A stretch of DNA of 64,000 nucleotides from Thermoplasmata archaeon. GTDB lineage: Archaea; Thermoplasmatota; Thermoplasmata; Lutacidiplasmatales; UBA184. Within the stretch, counting starts at the first letter, position 1; every line of letters starts with the position of its first letter. Positions 38,367 to 64,000 of this stretch are shown one piece after another. The notes under the pieces were generated by a model. That model saw nothing but the letters and a program-made list of their open reading frames with translations, was not told where the DNA came from and ran no database searches. Made by a program: the position numbers and the translations under genes. The stretch covers positions 124,001-188,000 of the forward strand of contig JAKIWE010000004.1 of assembly GCA_022750195.1 (NCBI GenBank), written 5' to 3'.

Positions 38367-40172
38367 ATGGCCCCTCCGGACGGCGCGAGCTCGACGGGCG
38401 CGCGCCCTCCGGGCCGGACCGACCCGCGGCAGAAGCCCCCCCGAAACGCGGCGGAGTCGAAACCTCAGCGGGCCTTGGCGAAGGTGAGCCCCAACGCCCG
38501 TGCCGCCCTGCTCCAGCGTTCGTTGGCCCTGGACGCCAAATTCGTCAACCCGTCCCTGCTCCCCGAGAAGGTCGCCGTCCAGTCGGAACTGGGCGAGATG
38601 CGCCGGCAACTGCTCGGGGACCGGCGAGAAGTGAACCTGACCTACCCGGTGAATCCGCCCTACGCCTTCGTCCACATCGCCTTCAGCGAGAACGACGGGG
38701 AGTTCCAGTACACGGTACTCGAGCCGACCCTTCACGTCGAGGAGAAGGCGAAGATCGTTGAGATCCGCAAACGGATGGAGGCGATCATGGGCCAGGAGGA
38801 GCTCCCGTTCGCAGGGACTCAGAGCATCGAGAACTCTCCCATCCTCCGGGAGTACCTTCGGCAGCGGTTCCTCACCGTCCTTGACCTGTACGACATCGAG
38901 GTCCCCCTGAAACGTCGCCCGGTGCTTCTCTACTACCTGCACCGGGAGTTCCTCGGGCTAGGGCGGACCGATGCGATCCTCCGCGACCCGTTCCTCGAGG
39001 ACGTCAGCTGTCTCGGGCCGGGGGTGCCCCTCTTCGTGTTTCACCGCGTGTTCGGCTCGGTGCGAACGAACATCGTCTTCGACAACGAGCTGGAACTGAA
39101 CAAGTACGTCTTCCGGCTGGCCCAGCTCGCGAGCAAGCACATCTCGATCTACCAGCCGATCCTGGACGCCACGCTGCGGGACGGAAGCCGCATCAACCTC
39201 ACCTTAGGGACGGAGGTCACGCGCAAGGGTTCGACCTTCAGTATCCGGAAGTTCTCGCAGGACCCGGTCTCTCCGATCGACCTCCTCCGTTTTGGCTCGC
39301 TCTCGGCTACGGAGCTGGCCTACTTCTGGATGCTCATCGAGCACCACCGTTCGCTCCTGATCTCCGGCGGGACGGCGAGCGGGAAGACGACTCTCCTCAA
39401 CGCCATCAGCATGTTCATCCGGCCGGAGGACAAGATCGTCTCGATCGAGGATACCCCGGAGATCCACATCGACCACCAGAACTGGATCCAGTCGGTGGCG
39501 CGGTCGGGGTACGGGATGGCGAGCGGGATCTCGGGCGCTTCAGGGGTCTCGGGCATTTCCGGGAACGCGGGCCGTTCGGTGGGCAGCGTCACCCTCTTCG
39601 ACCTGCTCGTGGCCGCCCTCCGCCAGCGCCCGGAGTACGTCATCGTCGGGGAGGTCCGGGGCAGCGAGTCGTTCACCCTGTTCCAGGCGATCTCGGTCGG
39701 CCATGCCTCGATGTCGACGATCCACGCCGGGTCGATCGGAGAGCTCCTCCACCGCGTGGAGAACGAGCCGATGAACATCCCCCGGGTACTGTTCCAGGCC
39801 CTAGACTCGGTGGCCTTCCCGGCCCAAGTCTCCGTCAAGAATAACCGTGTCCGCCGGGTCTCGAGCATCACCGAGATCCTCGAGGTCGACCCGGAGACGA
39901 ACGAGCTGTTGACGAACGAGGTGTTCCGATGGGATCCGGTGGAAGATCGGTTCACCTTCCTCGGTCGCAGCTTCGTGCTGGAGAAGATCGGGAAGGTCCG
40001 CGGTAAGTCGCTCGACTGGCTCTTCGGCGAGCTGCGGCGGAAGGAGAGCTACCTCGAGATGATGAACCGAGCGAACATCACCTACTTCAAGGACGTCAGC
40101 CGCGCGATCGCGGCGTACTACGTCGACCCCTCCGAAGCGGTCCGCAAGCTCCAGGGCCTCGTCGCCAGCTGA
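38367..40172 (+). CDS. type II/IV secretion-family pilus assembly ATPase (PilB/GspE-like)
   Basis: 601 aa. It powers assembly of archaeal type IV pili. The N-terminal domain leads to the motor with Walker A GGTASGKTTLL at about residues 333-343, IEDTPEIHI (Asp box) and Walker B-region YVIVGEVRGSES at about 422-433. A Gly/Ser-rich insert (about residues 384-406, ISGASGVSGISG) lies between the Asp box and Walker B, where relatives have a short loop. It is first of a three-gene operon with two TadC-like platform proteins, 6 nt upstream of the next. Confidence 0.9.
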   Translation: MAPPDGASSTGARPPGRTDPRQKPPRNAAESKPQRALAKVSPNARAALLQRSLALDAKFVNPSLLPEKVAVQSELGEMRRQLLGDRREVNLTYPVNPPYAFVHIAFSENDGEFQYTVLEPTLHVEEKAKIVEIRKRMEAIMGQEELPFAGTQSIENSPILREYLRQRFLTVLDLYDIEVPLKRRPVLLYYLHREFLGLGRTDAILRDPFLEDVSCLGPGVPLFVFHRVFGSVRTNIVFDNELELNKYVFRLAQLASKHISIYQPILDATLRDGSRINLTLGTEVTRKGSTFSIRKFSQDPVSPIDLLRFGSLSATELAYFWMLIEHHRSLLISGGTASGKTTLLNAISMFIRPEDKIVSIEDTPEIHIDHQNWIQSVARSGYGMASGISGASGVSGISGNAGRSVGSVTLFDLLVAALRQRPEYVIVGEVRGSESFTLFQAISVGHASMSTIHAGSIGELLHRVENEPMNIPRVLFQALDSVAFPAQVSVKNNRVRRVSSITEILEVDPETNELLTNEVFRWDPVEDRFTFLGRSFVLEKIGKVRGKSLDWLFGELRRKESYLEMMNRANITYFKDVSRAIAAYYVDPSEAVRKLQGLVAS

Positions 40173-55433: not shown

Positions 55434-56738
55434 TCAGCCGACCCGCTCCCAGCGCTCCAGCTTCTGGACGGCGCTGAGGGTCGAACCGCGCTGGATCTCC
55501 TCGCGGACCCGGTTCTCGTGCTCGAGGACGTCTAAGGCGCGGTTCGCGATCTCGGCGGCCCGCTCGCGGGGCACGACCACGACCCCGCTCGCGTCGCCGA
55601 CGATCCAATCGCCCGGACGCACTTTCTGATGGCCGACCACCACCTCGACGCCGATCTCCCCGTGCCCCTTCGGCTCACCGGCGTTCGGGGCGAGGCTCCG
55701 GCTGAACACTGGGAATCCGAGGTCGAGGATGGCGTCGATATCCCGCGCCGCCCCGTCGATCACCACGCCCTGGACCTTGCGCCCGTGCGCGCTCCACGAG
55801 GCGAGCTCCCCCCAGATGGCCGTGTGGCCCCCGCCGGCGTCGACGACGATGACATCCCCCTCGCCGGCGCGGTCGATCGCCTCGACCGGCTTCGCCCAAT
55901 CGCCATCGAGCGTGACCACGGTGACGGCCGGCCCGGCGATCTTCACGGTCGGGTCCTTGAGGCGCGGCAGGATGCCGCGCATCGCCCCTTGCCGCTGCAT
56001 CGCGTCGCTGAGGTTGGGCGTCGAGACCTTCGCGAAGGCGGCCCGGATCTCGGGCGTGCCGTACCGGCGGAACAGCTCGGTGGGCATCTCCTTCAGCTCC
56101 CGGATCGCCGTCACGATCCGCCCCGTGGCTCCCTTGATATCCGGCGACTTCGTGATGGCGCCGCCGACGATGAGGATCCGTGCGCCCGCCCGCGCGGCGC
56201 TGGCCACGGTCTCGCTGTTGAGGCCCCCGGCGACGGCGACCGGCAACGGCGCGTCGCGCGCGAAGCTCTCGAGCGCCGCGAACGGGGTCTTGCCCTGCAT
56301 CTGCATGTCGATGCCGATGTGCAGGCAGACCGCCCCGGCTCCGAGCTCGTAGGCCCGACGGGCGCGGGCGAGAGGGTCGGTGACGTTGAGCAGGTCGACG
56401 ACGACCTCCGCGCCGTACTTCTCGCCGGCGCGCACGGCCTCGGCGATCGTGTCGTCGTCGCTCGCTCCGAGCACGGTGACCAGGTCCGCCCCGGCCTTCG
56501 CGGCGATCTCGACCTCGAAGGCGCCGGTGTCCATGATCTTCATGTCGGCGACGATCCGCTGCTGCGGAAAGGCGCGCTTCAGCTCGCGGACGGCTTCGAG
56601 CCCCTCGCTCTTGATGAGGGGCGTACCGGCCTCCACCCAGTCCGCGCCGCCGTCGACCGCCTCGCGCGCGGCGCCGAGCGCCCGCGAGAGGTTCTCGAAG
56701 TCGAGGGCTACCTGCAGGACCGGCCGTTCGAGGCGCAT
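55434..56738 (-). CDS. fusion of 3-hexulose-6-phosphate synthase and RraA-like domain
   Basis: 434 aa. Residues 1-215 are an HPS/OMP-decarboxylase-like barrel (LQVALDFENL, EAGTPLIKSEG, IVADMKIMDTG, VAVAGGLNSETV). Residues about 225-434 are RraA-like (LSDAMQRQGAM, GDVIVVDAGGGHTAIWGELAS, GVVIDGAARDID, PGDWIVGDASGVVVVP). HPS joins or splits formaldehyde and ribulose 5-phosphate; in archaea it is used to make pentose phosphates. The fused form is known from archaea; the RraA-like part may act as an aldolase. A TATA at 56762-56767 supports the start. Confidence 0.9.
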   Translation of the reverse strand: MRLERPVLQVALDFENLSRALGAAREAVDGGADWVEAGTPLIKSEGLEAVRELKRAFPQQRIVADMKIMDTGAFEVEIAAKAGADLVTVLGASDDDTIAEAVRAGEKYGAEVVVDLLNVTDPLARARRAYELGAGAVCLHIGIDMQMQGKTPFAALESFARDAPLPVAVAGGLNSETVASAARAGARILIVGGAITKSPDIKGATGRIVTAIRELKEMPTELFRRYGTPEIRAAFAKVSTPNLSDAMQRQGAMRGILPRLKDPTVKIAGPAVTVVTLDGDWAKPVEAIDRAGEGDVIVVDAGGGHTAIWGELASWSAHGRKVQGVVIDGAARDIDAILDLGFPVFSRSLAPNAGEPKGHGEIGVEVVVGHQKVRPGDWIVGDASGVVVVPRERAAEIANRALDVLEHENRVREEIQRGSTLSAVQKLERWERVG

Positions 56739-56806: not shown

Positions 56807-57664
56807 ATGGAACGGGGCGAGGTCACCATCATCGCCGGCGACGCTCGGGAGCTCCGGGGGGTCGGCGACGCCTCGGTCGAGCTCGTCGTCACGAGCCCTC
56901 CCTACCCGATGATCGCCCGGTGGGATGCGCTGTTCCGGGAGCTGGGCGCCGTCGACTTCGATGGGATGCACCGGGTGCTGGGCGACGCCTGGCGCGCCTG
57001 CCACCGCGTGCTGGTCCCTGGGGGCCTTCTCGCGATCAACATTGGCGACGCGCTCCGTTCTCTGGACGGAGAGTTCCGGCTCTGGCCCAACCACGCCCGG
57101 GTGGTGTTGGAGTGCGAGGGCTCCGGCTTCCGATCGCTCCCCTACCTGTTGTGGAAGAAGCCGACCAATCGGCCGAACGCCTTTCTCGGCTCCGGCTTCC
57201 TACCGCCGAACGCCTACGTGACCGTCGATTGCGAGTTCGTTCTCCTGTTCCGAAAAGGGCCGCTCCGGGCGTTCCCGCGGGGCGATCACCGACGGTCGGC
57301 GAGCCGGTACACCCGCGCGGAACGGGACCGGTGGTTCTCGCAGGTGTGGGGCGACGTTCGCGGGGCGCGTCAGGACGAGGACGGTCGACGTACCGCGGCC
57401 TTCCCCCCGGCCATCCCCGAGCGTCTGGTCCGGATGTTCTCGGTCCTAGGTGACACGGTGCTCGACCCGTTCGCCGGCACCGGCACCACGTTGTGGGCCG
57501 CCTCCGGGCTCGGCCGGCGTGCGCTCGGCGTCGAGCGGGATCCCGTGCTCGTCGAGCGGCTCAGGGAGCGGGCGCGGTCGTGGGCGGCGCCGGAACCTCG
57601 GCGGTCCGCCGGGCAAGTTCGCGGTGCTCGATCTCCTCCCGCACGGCGTGGTGGAGGTAGCTGA
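56807..57664 (+). CDS. DNA methyltransferase, N4-cytosine/N6-adenine type (orphan)
   Basis: 285 aa. The catalytic motif VVTSPPYPM is at about residues 27-35; the S-P-P-Y form is typical of N4-cytosine enzymes. The SAM-binding motif I DPFAGTGTT lies near the C-terminus (about 220-228), giving the beta-class circular order. No restriction endonuclease gene is adjacent. The last 35 residues are Arg/Pro-rich and overlap by 104 nt the convergent gene at 57561-58121, so the natural C-terminus may be unusually extended. Confidence 0.85.
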   Translation: MERGEVTIIAGDARELRGVGDASVELVVTSPPYPMIARWDALFRELGAVDFDGMHRVLGDAWRACHRVLVPGGLLAINIGDALRSLDGEFRLWPNHARVVLECEGSGFRSLPYLLWKKPTNRPNAFLGSGFLPPNAYVTVDCEFVLLFRKGPLRAFPRGDHRRSASRYTRAERDRWFSQVWGDVRGARQDEDGRRTAAFPPAIPERLVRMFSVLGDTVLDPFAGTGTTLWAASGLGRRALGVERDPVLVERLRERARSWAAPEPRRSAGQVRGARSPPARRGGGS

Positions 57665-58121
57665 GCGCGGGGTCGGTGAGCCGATCGAGGTGCAGGAGCA
57701 GGTAGTGGAGGTAGATCCGCTCCGGCCGCCGCGACGGACCGGGCGGATGGTGAACGACCCCCGGTACGGGGGCTTCGTGAGGCGGGTGGACGCTCGCGAG
57801 CGTCTCGGCGTGATGGGCGTTCTCCTCGCCGTGCAGGGCCCGACCGGTCGCGCCTACGAGCGGCGGATACACCCGGGCGACGGGGTCGTCGAGCTCCTCG
57901 GGGCCGCCTCCGGGCGTCTCAACACGCGGGTAGACGCTGATCGAACGAGGGGCCGGCGCCGAGGAGTTGAGCTTGATCTTCAAGTACGGATGCATCGGGC
58001 GCGAGGGGTCCTGAAGCTCGGAGATCGGTCGGCCGGCGACCTCCTCGACGATGGTCTTGAGGCTCCAGGAGTCCCGCCGGCGTACCGGGCCGTCGGCCGT
58101 CGCTTGGGGCTCCGAGCTCAC
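57561..58121 (-). CDS. hypothetical protein downstream of the T4SS-like operon
   Basis: 186 aa, not recognised. The N-terminal third has a SLKTIVEEVAGRPISEL helix and a YLKIKLNSS strand; a His/Pro-rich middle follows, and the end has RRPERIYLHYLLLHLDRLTDPALSYLHHAVREEIEHREL. A TTTATC box (58148-58153) 29 nt upstream of the GTG at 58121 supports a leaderless gene with its own promoter, 87 nt after the VirB4-like gene. A link to transfer functions is possible but unproven. Confidence 0.55.
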   Translation of the reverse strand: MSSEPQATADGPVRRRDSWSLKTIVEEVAGRPISELQDPSRPMHPYLKIKLNSSAPAPRSISVYPRVETPGGGPEELDDPVARVYPPLVGATGRALHGEENAHHAETLASVHPPHEAPVPGVVHHPPGPSRRPERIYLHYLLLHLDRLTDPALSYLHHAVREEIEHRELARRTAEVPAPPTTAPAP

Positions 58122-58208: not shown

Positions 58209-59918
58209 CTAGCCGGTTCGGACCGTTGAGCCCGCGGCCGTAGGGAGCGCCGAGGGGAGTCGGAGGGCGCGGGTCAAGAAGTCGAACTCGGGCGTGGCCG
58301 CGACGACCGCCAGGGGGAGATGTGACGGGCCGAGCCGGAGCAACCCCTCCGCGTACCCCGCCTCCGCCGGCAGGCGGGCTCGCGGGAGCCAGTCGGACTC
58401 GACCGCCGTGAGCTGGAAGAACTCCCGGGTCGGTTCGGAGACCTCCGGGAGCCGGAGGAGGAGGGTCGCGGAGAGATTCCGCAACAACGACCGCCCGCTG
58501 TCGGTCGTGAGGAAGTCGTCGGGGTTCTGGCTGAGCAGCAGCAGACCCGCGTCGTAATGCCGCACATGCCGCACGATCCGGTCCAGGAACTCGATGGTCG
58601 CCGGGTGACGGGTGAGGAGGTGCGCTTCGTCGACCACGACGAGCGTCGGGCCGGGGGCGGCCCGCAGGCGTCCGTACACCGCCTCGAGAAGGTAGGCGAG
58701 GTGGAACGGGAGGTGGGAGGGGTCCGCGCCGGCGAGGTTGATCACGAGCGGGTCGGCCGAGAGGTCGACCGTCGTCGGTCCGTCAAGGTGCAGCAGCGGG
58801 CCGTGGAGGAACAGCTCCAGGAACTGGTGGAGGCGGCGAGCCGCTGCGCCCTCCCCGGACGGGAGCACCGCGGCGAGATCCGAGAAGGTCGGGGCCCGGT
58901 CCAGGGAGCTCCGGTACAGGGTATCGACCGCGCTCTCGAGCAACGCGGACTCCTCATCGGAAAGGGTCGGGAACAGCGCGCGGACCATGGCGACGACGTT
59001 CGCCGCCTTCGCCCGCCGATCGCCGCCGGTGGTCGCCGGGTCGAGCGGGTTCACGCGGGCCTCACCCTCGGGTCCCAGGGTCACGACCGCTCCGCCGAGC
59101 GCCGGCGCTAGGCGCGTGAACTCGCCCAGGGGGTCGATGAAGGTGAGCGAGACACCGTGGGTCATCCAGCGGCTCCGCAGCGCCCAGAGCGCGGCCGCGA
59201 ACGTCTTGCCGGAGCCGGTGGTCCCGAAGACCCCCCAGGAGTAGCTCCCGTGGAGCCACCGGTTCACGATCACCGGCGCCGCGTCGTCGAGCAGCAGGCC
59301 GACCAGGATGCCGCCCGGCTCGGCGATCGATTCGTCGACGAACGGGAAGAACGCCGCCGCCCCCTCGGTTGAGAGGAGGTGCCAGTACCCGGCGGGTCGG
59401 CCGTCGCCCGGAGGGAACTCGGGAGGAGCCACCACCCGGACCGTATCGAACGCGGGCGAGCGGGTCCGTAGTCCCAACGCGGCGGCGCGCCGCTCGAGGT
59501 CGCGACGGATCCTCTCGGCGACGACCGGGCGGCGGTCGACTCCGTGGAGCGAGAGCCCGACCCGCCAGAGGTCCTGCTCCCGAGCCGCGACGCGTTCGGC
59601 AAGCTCCGCTGCGGCCGCGGCCTCGACCCGGAGGCGTGCCGGGCGCCCGCCCCGGACGGTCCCCCCGCTCTCGAGCTCGGCCTCGGCCCCGACGTCCGCG
59701 GCGTGCAGGAGCTCGAGCGCCTCGGTGGAGGCGAACCGGTGGAGCTGGAGGCGGAGCTCGCCGGCGCTGGAGGTCGGCACGAGCCGACCGACGAACCCGA
59801 ACGGCACCTCCGACGGCAGCGCCGAGACCAGCAGCGGGGCGTCGACGCCGAACCGTCGGCGGATCCAGGAGACCGTCTCGATGGGGGGCGCGCGGAGCCC
59901 TCCCGGACGCTCCGTCAC
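58209..59918 (-). CDS. VirB4/HerA-like motor ATPase of a type IV secretion-like system
   Basis: 569 aa. Walker A WGVFGTTGSGKTFAAAL is at about residues 230-246, then FIDPLGEF, Walker B LVVVDEAHLL at about 426-435, and the sensor segment LLLLSQNPDDFL. Between them FPTLSDEESALLESAVDTLY is characteristic of VirB4/TraC/CedB ATPases. The N-terminal 220 residues carry a partial VirB4-type domain; a further VirB4 N-terminal-like portion sits on the gene at 60262-61044. It should energise pilus or channel assembly. The ATG at 59918 overlaps the previous stop as ATGA. It ends the operon. Confidence 0.85.
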   Translation of the reverse strand: MTERPGGLRAPPIETVSWIRRRFGVDAPLLVSALPSEVPFGFVGRLVPTSSAGELRLQLHRFASTEALELLHAADVGAEAELESGGTVRGGRPARLRVEAAAAAELAERVAAREQDLWRVGLSLHGVDRRPVVAERIRRDLERRAAALGLRTRSPAFDTVRVVAPPEFPPGDGRPAGYWHLLSTEGAAAFFPFVDESIAEPGGILVGLLLDDAAPVIVNRWLHGSYSWGVFGTTGSGKTFAAALWALRSRWMTHGVSLTFIDPLGEFTRLAPALGGAVVTLGPEGEARVNPLDPATTGGDRRAKAANVVAMVRALFPTLSDEESALLESAVDTLYRSSLDRAPTFSDLAAVLPSGEGAAARRLHQFLELFLHGPLLHLDGPTTVDLSADPLVINLAGADPSHLPFHLAYLLEAVYGRLRAAPGPTLVVVDEAHLLTRHPATIEFLDRIVRHVRHYDAGLLLLSQNPDDFLTTDSGRSLLRNLSATLLLRLPEVSEPTREFFQLTAVESDWLPRARLPAEAGYAEGLLRLGPSHLPLAVVAATPEFDFLTRALRLPSALPTAAGSTVRTG

Positions 59919-60265
59919 CGCCTCGACCCCCGAGCACGGGCGCGTCGTGCGAGGTTCCAGAGCACGACCGTCATCCCCGCCAAGATCGGCCCGCGCACGG
60001 CGAACCAGGTACCCGGCACGCCGAGCGCCACCGACCAGCCGACCGCAGCCGCGGTGCCGCCGATCATCCAGTCGGGCCAGCCCTTCGAAGCCGACGGGGC
60101 CGACCGTCGGACCACGGCCCAGGCGACGAACGCGAGTGCCCCGAGCGTCGCCGTGAGCCCGACGAAGTACGGCACGACGACCGAGAGGGCCCCAGCTAGG
60201 ACCGTGAAACGGGCGATCGTGGTGAGGAGGTCGGCCGGGACGGGAGGGGCCGCGGCGGCGGTCAC
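59915..60265 (-). CDS. small membrane protein of the T4SS-like operon
   Basis: About 116 aa with three or four hydrophobic helices (about 14-32, 35-52, 68-85, 90-105) and a basic C-terminus. No family is assigned; size and position are those of minor T4SS membrane components. The GTG at 60265 makes a GTGA overlap with the previous stop and is preferred to the ATG at 60286. Its own stop overlaps the ATPase start by 4 nt. Confidence 0.6.
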   Translation of the reverse strand: MTAAAAPPVPADLLTTIARFTVLAGALSVVVPYFVGLTATLGALAFVAWAVVRRSAPSASKGWPDWMIGGTAAAVGWSVALGVPGTWFAVRGPILAGMTVVLWNLARRARARGSRR

Positions 60266-61044
60266 GAGCTCCTCCCCGGGCCCCATCCGAACGCGACGAG
60301 GCCCTCCGTCAGCGCCGGCCCACGGAGCCGCTCCGAGCCGACCCCAAGGGCGTCGAGCCGCTCGTGAAGGTCGCGCAGGCGTCGCTCGAGCTGGAGCGAG
60401 GCGCTCGGGGAGCCCGAGGGTCCGCCGACCGCCAGCAGGACGTCGCGACGTCGGCGGTGGCGGCCGAGCAGTCGGACCATCTCGACGTAGCCGTCGCGGG
60501 CCCGTTGTTCGTCGGAGCCGAGAGTGACAGGGAGGGGTACGAACGGCCGGGTCCCCAGCGGGAGGCCGCGCACCAGCAGGGCAACGCCGCCGTCGAGGGA
60601 GCCGAGGAGCTGCCGATAGGCCGTGAACAGCTCGCGGGCGTTCGCGGGCGGGAGGAAGGCGACCGGGATCCCCTCGGCGCGAAGCATGCCGACCAGGACG
60701 CCCCCGGGGACGGCGGCGAGGGCCCGACCGCTCGCGATCGACGGACGATGGCGAGCCCGGGGCCTACCGCCGGCGCCACCCCGTCGACGCCAGGTCCACC
60801 CCAGGTAGTCGGCGAGGCGACGATCGAAGGGAGGGCCGTCGGTGGGACGGACCCCCACGACGAAGCCCACGGCGAGGAACGGCAGCCACAACCAGGGGCT
60901 GACAAAGCCCGCGACGACCGCTCCAGCCGCCGCGTAGGCGAGGAACTTGAGGGCGTCGCGGCCGGAGGGGAACGGTCCGAGCGAGGGAGAACGGGGCACG
61001 GCGGCCTGGAGCCGGAGCACCGGCGGAGCCGTAGGGTCGGTCAT
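60262..61044 (-). CDS. VirB3/PrgI-like membrane protein fused to a VirB4 N-terminal-like domain
   Basis: 260 aa. Two close TM helices (about residues 31-65, FLAYAAAGAVVAGFVSPWLWLPFLAVGFVVGV) match the VirB3/PrgI layout. The C-terminal 150 residues resemble the substrate domain at the start of VirB4/TraC: ELFTAYRQLLGSLDGGVALLVRGLPL, a Tyr-Glu-Met helix, and LERRLRDLHERLDALGV. The VirB4 function thus appears split over two genes. The long frame upstream overlaps the VirB6-like gene and is spurious; the ATG at 61044 overlaps its stop as ATGA. Confidence 0.7.
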   Translation of the reverse strand: MTDPTAPPVLRLQAAVPRSPSLGPFPSGRDALKFLAYAAAGAVVAGFVSPWLWLPFLAVGFVVGVRPTDGPPFDRRLADYLGWTWRRRGGAGGRPRARHRPSIASGRALAAVPGGVLVGMLRAEGIPVAFLPPANARELFTAYRQLLGSLDGGVALLVRGLPLGTRPFVPLPVTLGSDEQRARDGYVEMVRLLGRHRRRRDVLLAVGGPSGSPSASLQLERRLRDLHERLDALGVGSERLRGPALTEGLVAFGWGPGRSS

Positions 61045-62186
61045 GGGTCGGTGGCCGCGCGCGAGGCCACGCCTCCCCCGCTGCGGACGGGCGGGAATCG
61101 GTCGCGACTGCGCACGGCGTGGACGAGGCGGGGGACGTGGCGGAACAGGTGATGGGCGCCCCATCCGATCGCCTCCGAGCTCAGCGCCGGGATCGTCGCG
61201 GGGAGCGCGGTGCTCGTCGCGGTCCGGGCCAACGAGCTGGCGGTCGCTCCGCCCCCGCCGGCCCGACCGCCGGCCGCGACCGGCCGAAGGTACCCGCCTC
61301 CTCCCGCGGACGCGAGGAGCAGGCCGCGCTGGATCCCGCCGACGACCACCGACCCGCCGCCGGCGAACCCGGCCTCGCGCAGCTGGGCCCCGGCGAGGCT
61401 GATGAGGGAGGGGGCGGAGACGGCGACGGTGAGGTACCCGAGCAGCAGGAGGACGCTCGGCGAGCCGACGGCGAGCTCGAGCGGGACGACGACGACGCAC
61501 GGAAGGAAGCTGAGCTCGATGAACAACAGCCAGGCGCGCCGGGCCAGCGGGGCGAAGGTCGGGATCGGCCAGAGCAGGGTCGCCACCGGCAGGAGGACGA
61601 GGAGCACCGCGAGCATCGCGTCGCGCAGCGCAACGGCCGCCGCGAGGATCATCACGAGCGAGAACAGCAGGAACGTGACGACGAAGGCGAGCACGCCGTT
61701 GTCCCACGAGAAGCCGATCTCGCCGTACCCGCCGAGGTTCCCCCAGTGCTGCCACGCGCCCTGGTCGAACCCCTCGATCACCGGGTAGAGGCCTCCCGCG
61801 AGACCGAAGAGAGCGCCGGCGACGGGGAGCGTGAAGTTCGCGAGGACCGCGGCGACCACGAGCCGGGGGAGCAGGGCATGCGTCCGCTCGGCGAGGCGGG
61901 GCGAGGCGGCGCGGGCAAGGTAGAGCACGCCCACGCCGACCGCGACCAGCGCCAGCGCGGGGTCGACCACGTGCACGACGAGGAAGCTGCTGAAAGCGCC
62001 GGCGACGGCGAGGAAAGCGCCGGAACCGCCGCCGGTCGGAGCGAGCGTCGGGTACAGCGCCGCGGGAGCGAGCTCGGGGACGAGGAGGTTGTCGTAGGTG
62101 GGACCGAGGACCGCGGCGAGGAGCCCGGTGAGTCCGACGAAGATCCCGAAGAGGATCGACTGGATCACCTGGTTGAGGTCGACCAT
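61041..62186 (-). CDS. VirB6/TrbL/CedA-like polytopic channel protein
   Basis: 381 aa with about seven hydrophobic helices up to residue 265. The block LRDAMLAVLLVLLPVATLLWPIPTFAPLARRAWLLFIEL (about 188-226) is the recognisable VirB6/TrbL pattern shared with archaeal CedA-like proteins. A Gly/Ala-rich cytoplasmic or extracytoplasmic tail ends the protein. It would form the inner-membrane DNA or pilin passage. It starts 19 nt after the VirB2-like gene and overlaps the next by 4 nt. Confidence 0.75.
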   Translation of the reverse strand: MVDLNQVIQSILFGIFVGLTGLLAAVLGPTYDNLLVPELAPAALYPTLAPTGGGSGAFLAVAGAFSSFLVVHVVDPALALVAVGVGVLYLARAASPRLAERTHALLPRLVVAAVLANFTLPVAGALFGLAGGLYPVIEGFDQGAWQHWGNLGGYGEIGFSWDNGVLAFVVTFLLFSLVMILAAAVALRDAMLAVLLVLLPVATLLWPIPTFAPLARRAWLLFIELSFLPCVVVVPLELAVGSPSVLLLLGYLTVAVSAPSLISLAGAQLREAGFAGGGSVVVGGIQRGLLLASAGGGGYLRPVAAGGRAGGGGATASSLARTATSTALPATIPALSSEAIGWGAHHLFRHVPRLVHAVRSRDRFPPVRSGGGVASRAATDP

Positions 62187-62205
62187 CCCGCGGCTCCCGG
62201 TCGGC

Positions 62206-62583
62206 TCAGCCGCCGACGACCCACTTGGCGAGCGCGAAGAGGAGGCCGCTCAGAGCTGCGACGAACAGCAAGGTCCCCACGAGGGCGTCGCGCGCTCGGT
62301 CCTTCGCTTGCACCTTCTTGCTGAGGTCGTTCGAGAACCAGCTCAGCGCGACCCGGGTCCAGACGAGGGCGAGGAGCCCCCCACCGGCGGCGCCCACCAG
62401 CGTCACCAGGCGGCCGACGGCGGCGGAGAAGTTGCTCACGACCGAATCGTTCGCCGTCGCGGCGGGAAGGTGGAGGGGGAGAGAGGTCGAAGGCAGGTCG
62501 GTGAGCGGGGCGGCCGCCGCTAGCAGGAGGGCGACCGACAGCAGCGCGGTCGCTCCGGTCCCTGGTCCACGGGAGGCCGTCAT
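62206..62583 (-). CDS. VirB2-like two-helix pilin
   Basis: 125 aa. A signal-peptide-like hydrophobic stretch (about 11-27) is followed by a 25-residue spacer. Two TM helices (about 55-78 and 100-121) are separated by a short charged loop, SNDLSKKVQAKDRARDA. This hairpin with a basic cytoplasmic loop is the layout of VirB2/TrbC and of archaeal Ced/Ted pilins. The ATG at 62583 overlaps the upstream stop as ATGA, which excludes the longer in-frame extension. Confidence 0.65.
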   Translation of the reverse strand: MTASRGPGTGATALLSVALLLAAAAPLTDLPSTSLPLHLPAATANDSVVSNFSAAVGRLVTLVGAAGGGLLALVWTRVALSWFSNDLSKKVQAKDRARDALVGTLLFVAALSGLLFALAKWVVGG

Positions 62584-64000
62584 GCCGGTGAGCCCTCCGG
62601 CTCGGAGGCACCTCCCAGCGCCGATCCCGAAGGCCCTCCCTCGTCCCAGAAGAAGAGCGGCTCCTCGTCCGGGCCTGGCTCGGTCCGAACCCGGTGCGAC
62701 CGTTGCCATCGGCGGAGCGCGTCGTCGACCTGCGTTTCGGAGAGGCCGTCGTCCTCCGCCAGGAAGTAGAGCGTGGCCCGGTCGAGGCCCTCAGACTCCT
62801 GCAGGTAGCGACGTACGGCGTGCATCGCCTCCGCCGGGCTCCCCGGGCCTTCGCGGCGTCGGGTGCGGCGCCGGCGACGTGGCAGCAGGATGGCGGCGGC
62901 GACGCCCCCGGCTCCGAGGAGACCGACCAGCCAGGTGGGGTCCGAAACCGCGGGGGGCGAGGGGGAGGACGGCCCCGGCGCCGTCGGAGCCGGGACGGTG
63001 GGACCGACGGTCGCGACGACGGTGAGAACCGACTCGCCGCGACCCCCGAGCAGGTCGGTCACCAGAAGTCGGAGCTCGACGTAGCCGGCCGAGCGGGGAG
63101 TAAGCCCGAGCTGGACGGGGCCGGCGGTCGAGAGGTTGCCGACGAGGCGCTCGCCGTCGGTCGAAGTGAGCGCATAGGCATACGGTGGGTCGCCCCCGCC
63201 GAACTCAGCCGAAAGCACCGCCGGCGTCCCGACGACCAGGCCGGAGGGCGGCAGCAGCGAGAGCAGGAGCGGGGGGAGCACGCGGACCGTAAGGTTCGCC
63301 GAGGCCCACACCCCGGCCGCGTCCCTCGCCGTCGCGAGGAAGGTGAGGTTGCCACCGGCGAGGGCGGTCGCCTCCCAGCCGAACGCCCCGGAGCCGTTGA
63401 GGACGCCGGTCGACGGCCCCGTCGAGTTCACCGGCAGCGAGGCGGTCAAGCTCCAGCTGACCGGCGGGGAGCCACCGATCAGCTCACCGCCCACGCCGAA
63501 CCGTTCTCCGGGTTCCGAGAGCAACGCTCCGCTCGTCAGCGTGATCGACGGCGGCGGGTAGATCGCGGCGACCGGAGCCGTCGCGGCGAGCCGAACTCCG
63601 AGAGCGTCCTCGGCCGTGACGGTCACCCACAGCGTGCCCGCCAAGCCCGTCGTGACCGCCTCGAGGTACCAGCCGTCCGCCGGGAGCTCGGCGCTCCGGT
63701 TCTCCCCCCCTCCGACCGGAGCCCACCCGACGGAGAACGGAGGCACCGCCCCGGTGAGGTTCACGACGAACGGCACCGCCCGCCCCACATCTCCGACCGG
63801 CGAGCCGGTTCCGAGGACCAGGCGCAGGGGCCCCGCGACCGCGAGCGTAGCATCCGAGCCGACGCTCGTGCCGCCGAGGTCCGTCACCACGACGCGGATG
63901 TCGACGTTTCCCGGCAGCTGCGGCGTGACGGTCCAGTTCGGCCCGATCCCCGTTAGCCCGATCGAGCTCGTCCAGCTGACGAAGTACGGCGCCTCTCCTC
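62580..64000 (-). CDS. Ig-like surface protein with anchor and cytoplasmic helical tail (5' end beyond the window)
   Basis: At least 473 residues; the frame stays open to the window edge, so the N-terminus is outside. Several Ig/PKD-like units (PPFSVGW, PPVSWSLT, PPYAYALT strands) are followed by a Pro/Ser linker, one TM helix (TWLVGLLGAGGVAAAILL) and RRRRRTRRR. The roughly 85-residue tail (PAEAMHAVRRYLQESEGLDRATLYFLAEDDGLSETQVDDALRRW) looks like a helix-turn-helix. It is the first visible gene of the T4SS-like operon and could be a recognition or adhesion protein. It shares this design with the gene at 4548-7340. Confidence 0.7.
   Translation of the reverse strand, partial: GEAPYFVSWTSSIGLTGIGPNWTVTPQLPGNVDIRVVVTDLGGTSVGSDATLAVAGPLRLVLGTGSPVGDVGRAVPFVVNLTGAVPPFSVGWAPVGGGENRSAELPADGWYLEAVTTGLAGTLWVTVTAEDALGVRLAATAPVAAIYPPPSITLTSGALLSEPGERFGVGGELIGGSPPVSWSLTASLPVNSTGPSTGVLNGSGAFGWEATALAGGNLTFLATARDAAGVWASANLTVRVLPPLLLSLLPPSGLVVGTPAVLSAEFGGGDPPYAYALTSTDGERLVGNLSTAGPVQLGLTPRSAGYVELRLLVTDLLGGRGESVLTVVATVGPTVPAPTAPGPSSPSPPAVSDPTWLVGLLGAGGVAAAILLPRRRRRTRRREGPGSPAEAMHAVRRYLQESEGLDRATLYFLAEDDGLSETQVDDALRRWQRSHRVRTEPGPDEEPLFFWDEGGPSGSALGGASEPEGSPA

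Follow-up and report, generated by a model that had tools for sequence, protein, structure and literature searches.

Archaeal DNA import has been described for the Ced system of the Sulfolobales, which moves DNA, and for the Ted system of the Thermoproteales (PMC9905601, PMC11868833). The relaxase-less type IV secretion systems (T4SSs) of Patescibacteria have been tied in function to growth on a host or attachment to it (PMC12102498), and actinobacteria carry monoderm conjugation machines of the MPF-FATA class. Type IV secretion components have been reported before in Cuniculiplasma, for which a 2016 paper names in one sentence VirB4 and several membrane proteins of one cluster, a multipass protein among them (PMC5155288), and one presumed ICE was called in Aciduliprofundum boonei in 2011 (PMC3158045). 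The present study followed up the prediction of a DNA-transfer machine in the window G000:C47:124001-188000, by which we mean the whole 64,000-nucleotide stretch of DNA analyzed, taken from a draft genome of 2.45 Mb in 52 contigs.

A lineage of the Thermoplasmatota type had been guessed for this DNA, and since the named relatives nearest to the source genome are 'Thermoplasmata archaeon' MAGs, UBA184, and Candidatus Lutacidiplasma silvani, we place the organism with Candidatus Lutacidiplasmatales (Thermoplasmatota), in line with that guess. The original prediction was of a single-strand operon of six genes at 58209-64000 of the window, and all six were located there on the minus strand, in the order surface protein, VirB2, VirB6, VirB3/PrgI, small membrane protein, and VirB4. 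Four junctions had been given as 4-base overlaps, which they are: ATGA between surface protein and VirB2 (62580-62583) and between VirB6 and PrgI (61041-61044), GTGA between the small gene and VirB4 (59915-59918), and GTGA between PrgI and the small gene if the latter starts at 60265, the ATG at 60286 giving a longer overlap. The fifth, between VirB2 and VirB6, had been given as 19 nt and is a gap of that length rather than an overlap (62187-62205).

The last gene of the operon (58209..59918, minus strand) encodes a 569-aa ATPase whose Walker A and B motifs are invariant among 19 relatives. Its top NCBIfam model was the CD1110-type VirB4 (2.1e-38), followed by other VirB4 models, with CedD (1.9e-9) and HerA (7.8e-4) scoring more weakly, and its best PDB sequence match was VirB4 4ag5 (3.6e-14 as a single protein, 4.5e-43 by profile). 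The ATPase had been predicted to be of VirB4/HerA type, and an operon built around a HerA-type repair helicase, unrelated to secretion, would account for the weak matches of HerA-family models; however, the VirB4 models lead those of HerA by over 30 orders of magnitude, a separate HerA-like gene lies elsewhere in the genome, the HerA-like gene of G118, a relative of family f19, adjoins Mre11-like and NurA-like genes, and the partner genes in the operon are homologues of VirB2, VirB6, and PrgI. We consider a repair operon exceedingly improbable, and the HerA identity was rejected in favor of VirB4, on whose models the ATPase scores higher.

Direct Pfam searches with the window's VirB2, VirB6, and PrgI proteins returned no match. 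Because these single-sequence searches failed, family alignments were built and compared with the proteins at matching positions of bacterial loci retrieved by VirB4 search; two control hhalign comparisons gave 0.1-0.2%. The VirB6-like polytopic channel protein (61041..62186, minus strand; 381 aa), whose identity comes from profile-profile comparison only, aligned with actinobacterial TrbL/VirB6-like proteins (hhalign 95.2%, 2.5e-8) and with Patescibacterial counterparts (87%), and is present as a single copy per genome, adjoining VirB4. The VirB2-like pilin (62206..62583, minus strand; 125 aa) has an N-terminal hydrophobic segment followed by two long helices linked by a basic loop. The T4SS_pilin model PF18895 was matched by 10 of the 19 members of its family alignment (A1), and the Pfam pilin models PF18895/PF04956 were matched above cut-off in relatives of three other families (f15, f19, and f11). 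By hhalign the pilin aligned with those of Patescibacteria (85.5%, 5.7e-6) and weakly with the actinobacterial set (5.7%); a Foldseek search with its model (pLDDT 73) found no match, nor did the pilin profile match any sequence of the PDB set. When 194 genomes of the phylum were searched with the pilin profile from the window's family alone, 25 gave a match, and in the f15 and f19 genomes with both positions listed the match is no more than a few kb away from VirB4. Profile searches thus recovered both the two-helix VirB2-like pilin and, of the predicted VirB6/CedA-like protein, the VirB6 part.

Tandem arrays of VirB2-like genes were observed: G051 of f15 has five adjoining VirB6 (L051:12829-17685, minus strand), one of them short and the other four with large ectodomains at the N-terminus, and a genome close to G051 has four (L194).

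The VirB3/PrgI-like protein (60262..61044, minus strand; 260 aa) bore out its predicted assignment and, with it, the component that marks the MPF-FATA class, since the archaeal family aligned over its full length with actinobacterial PrgI proteins (hhalign 97%, 7.8e-11); PF12666 alone matched one member only of the PrgI family (0.013). Its AlphaFold model (mean pLDDT 84) consists of a membrane hairpin and an alpha/beta domain, and in a Foldseek search of the PDB its best match was TrwK/VirB4 of R388, with probabilities reaching 0.97 and an E-value of 0.025 at best. The protein may be a VirB3 fused to part of the N-terminal domain of VirB4, a reading of the model that is suggestive only, given the weak Foldseek E-values. 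Between PrgI and VirB4 lies the expected small membrane protein (59915..60286, minus strand; 123 aa), with about four hydrophobic segments, which is conserved in position and only weakly in sequence. With a VirB4 ATPase, a VirB6-like channel, and a VirB2-like pilin all present, the components that define the type IV secretion superfamily are complete, and on this sequence evidence the operon almost certainly encodes a T4SS-type machine.

The surface protein, predicted as the first gene of the operon, occupies 62580..64000 of the window (minus strand), and reading beyond position 64000 extended it to position 188844 of the contig, giving 754 aa in all (L002:4580-6844). It has a signal peptide, a PKD/Ig-like ectodomain (a weak PKD match), one transmembrane helix, a basic stretch, and a C-terminal winged-helix-like cytoplasmic domain. 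Across 34 loci the C-terminus runs from the basic stretch into a conserved domain some 60 residues long, and many members match the winged-helix families MarR_2, Rrf2, TrmB, and GntR with weak E-values; the protein may be a sensor or regulator. A comparison of this tail with its counterpart in the f15 surface protein gave no support for homology (1.6%).

An operon headed by an Ig/PKD surface protein, together with the large ectodomains on four of the five pilin-like proteins of G051, would fit a pilus for contact or adhesion, or a device for secreting protein, that moves no DNA, as has been suggested for Patescibacteria, which share the gene set without a relaxase (PMC12102498). Against such a device stand Ced, a functionally studied archaeal system of similar make-up that does move DNA, and the lack of any recognizable effector linked to the operon, and we regard it as rather improbable. 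A partner of the machine in cell contact could exist, since type IV pilus-type ATPases occur in the same genomes: Type II/IV pilus ATPase genes (PF00437) lie on the same contig at about 39102-39764 of the window (plus strand) and at C47 214755-219343, 19-37 kb from the operon, and are comparably near in G002 and G028.

Several further genes adjoin the operon. On the 5' side of the surface gene are YjgF and a fibrillarin-like gene; the latter (L002:6911-7567) is a second copy, the genome's other fibrillarin being on contig C11. On the 3' side of VirB4, orf186 (57561..58121, minus strand) encodes a conserved soluble protein of 186 aa, with no Pfam match, that follows VirB4 throughout the genus and in a diverged version in sister genera. 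Beyond it are a DNA-methyltransferase-like gene convergent to VirB4 (56807-57664) and a gene for a 434-aa protein (55434-56738, minus strand) that by eye is a candidate hexulose-6-phosphate synthase joined to an RraA-like domain. In G051, a larger protein with a related methyltransferase domain adjoins VirB4 (L051:6018-8573), which could be chance.

Matches to the VirB4 profile were found in 56 of the 69 other genomes of the genus, in 24 of 25 genomes of sister genera, in genomes of f11, f15, f27, and f31, and more distantly in f19. The same gene order is kept in about 14 relatives, and six families of the class share the core order VirB2-VirB6-(PrgI)-VirB4, mostly with the PrgI-like gene in between; not every locus has it, L089 consisting of PrgI and VirB4 only. 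The outcomes named beforehand as grounds for refutation, namely a lack of VirB2 or VirB6 similarity, an ATPase that groups with HerA, and an operon kept in no relative, were not seen. Among the genomes compared, those of G051 (f15; 1,486,778 bp) and G118 (f19; 1,564,906 bp) are one contig each. Relative to L149, dN/dS was about 0.2-0.27 for VirB4, VirB6, PrgI, and VirB2 and about 0.5 for the small membrane protein. The order kept in these relatives, together with dN well below dS, argues that the operon is not a chance arrangement. In the VirB4 tree, Thermoplasmata and haloarchaeal plasmid sequences stand apart from bacterial and nanoarchaeal ones (100/98), and f11, f15, f19, f27, and f31 each form one clade; a single clade of all Thermoplasmata VirB4 proteins is neither rejected nor shown (p-AU 0.615). 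A second VirB4 type, joined to a PrgI-like part, was observed in two sister genera (L094:8351-11083 and L096:3722-6322), where the stretches fetched gave no VirB6 or VirB2 match; these fusions fall outside the main family clade.

Wherever contigs reach, the genus has a constant block of fibrillarin, surface protein, VirB2, VirB6, PrgI, small membrane protein, VirB4, orf186, methyltransferase, and synthase, which is also found in sister genus g29 and, to the limit of the contig, in g25. The flanking genes are the same across the genus and two sister genera, and the variable insertion site of a mobile element is not seen there; in further sister genera the core operon has other surroundings (L093, L095, L097, L098, and L101). 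The whole block, metabolic neighbors included, is missing from G001, G013, G026, G183, G206, and G285 of the genus, and six other apparent absences of VirB4 are probably assembly gaps because those genomes retain the flanking genes. A functional tie of the operon to the methyltransferase or the second fibrillarin was considered and set aside: the operon-less genomes lack both, but DUF885, YjgF, and the sugar-phosphate synthase are gone too, so no special link is shown. The methyltransferase, lost together with metabolic neighbors, likewise reveals no DNA-specific partner.

Of the hallmarks of a conjugative element besides a variable insertion site, a search of the window's genome for VirD4 (PF02534) gave only the HerA-like gene, below cut-off, and a search for one relaxase family, PF03432, gave no match. 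The original prediction had leaned towards a resident function, and the single fixed chromosomal site, the purifying selection, and the absence of both genes (one family searched for each) agree that the operon is resident in the genus. The same three observations weigh against DNA export by conjugation, whether by what is left of an integrative element that has settled or by a donor of chromosomal DNA with an unrecognized relaxase or none. In its favor are the nearest bacterial loci, which are conjugative; known relaxases being missing from archaeal conjugative plasmids too; and G051, in which VirD4 (1.5e-25) and, alongside it, a weak relaxase-like gene (G051:C1:974288-976371; L182, L188) lie 39 kb from the operon. 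This pair is a possible integrative element, consistent with the ICE reported for A. boonei (PMC3158045). G096, of the same genus as G051, has no clear VirB4 or pilin match, and with the G051 pair this suggests that machines of this kind may move in one branch and be resident in others. For the operon in the window, we judge export unlikely.

Gene exchange has been discussed for acidophilic Thermoplasmata such as Ferroplasma, and we know of no mechanism assigned to it. On balance, we favor reading the operon as a resident, minimal T4SS without a relaxase that serves DNA import or exchange. By analogy with described systems, its substrate is probably DNA, and the chances that import is its main job appear about even. 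On the model of Ced and Ted, which likewise lack VirD4 and relaxase, the most likely task would be to bring in or exchange chromosomal DNA that serves recombination and repair. VirB4 would sit beneath a pore of PrgI and VirB6 in the single archaeal membrane and extract VirB2 to form a thin pilus, DNA, probably single-stranded, would pass from cell to cell within a species or among close ones, and the surface protein, through its winged-helix-like tail, might sense contact and tune expression.

A stripped-down T4SS, the kind of machine by which bacteria hand on DNA, is a normal chromosomal part of this soil archaeon and many of its relatives and, by the same analogy, would most likely serve them as a route of DNA exchange. 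As a resident machine it provides a specific locus for deletion and testing, and the Thermoplasmata become one more lineage for studying how machines of conjugation turned into host functions. In the searchable literature, which leaves aside most subscription papers and all preprints, we came across no paper on Thermoplasmatota that describes a complete VirB2-VirB3-VirB6-VirB4 set, and none on a class-wide resident machine in Thermoplasmata.

The Cuniculiplasma cluster and the A. boonei ICE are probably the same kind of locus, for which the accessible parts of those reports list components only, with no VirB2 or PrgI assignment, function, or class-wide view. The Patescibacterial T4SSs likewise have VirB4, PrgI, VirB6, and VirB2-like pilins, mostly without a relaxase, and share with G051 the tandem pilin arrays (PMC12102498), but they belong to a different lineage and encode the hairpin and the extra domain in separate genes, whereas the archaeal operon has the two fused. 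The actinobacterial MPF-FATA machines share the order pilin-VirB6-PrgI-VirB4 and the fusion of PrgI with an additional domain, locus L175 having T4SS_pilin (5.9e-19), a TrbL/VirB6-like protein (weak, 0.007), PrgI (1.3e-17), and VirB4; unlike them, the operon is chromosomally fixed, has no VirD4 or relaxase of the families searched, and has its VirB4 on the archaeal branch. Ced and Ted resemble the operon in being chromosomal, in having VirB4-, VirB6-, and VirB2-like parts, and in having no VirD4 or relaxase reported among them (PMC9905601, PMC11868833). The operon differs from both in its CD1110-type VirB4, which scores far above CedD (2.1e-38 vs 1.9e-9) and, as compared through the CedD model, is not orthologous to the Ced ATPase; in a VirB3/PrgI with an extra domain; and in a first gene for a surface protein with a winged-helix-like tail. 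By sequence, it is not a member of Ced, and its VirB4 and PrgI resemble those of monoderm, FATA-type machines. We tentatively suggest, with somewhat less than even confidence, that it represents a third archaeal DNA-exchange system, widespread in Thermoplasmata and distinct in sequence from Ced and Ted, with a VirB3-VirB4N fusion of its own, a winged-helix surface sensor, and, in an Aciduliprofundum-like genome, pilins bearing ectodomains.
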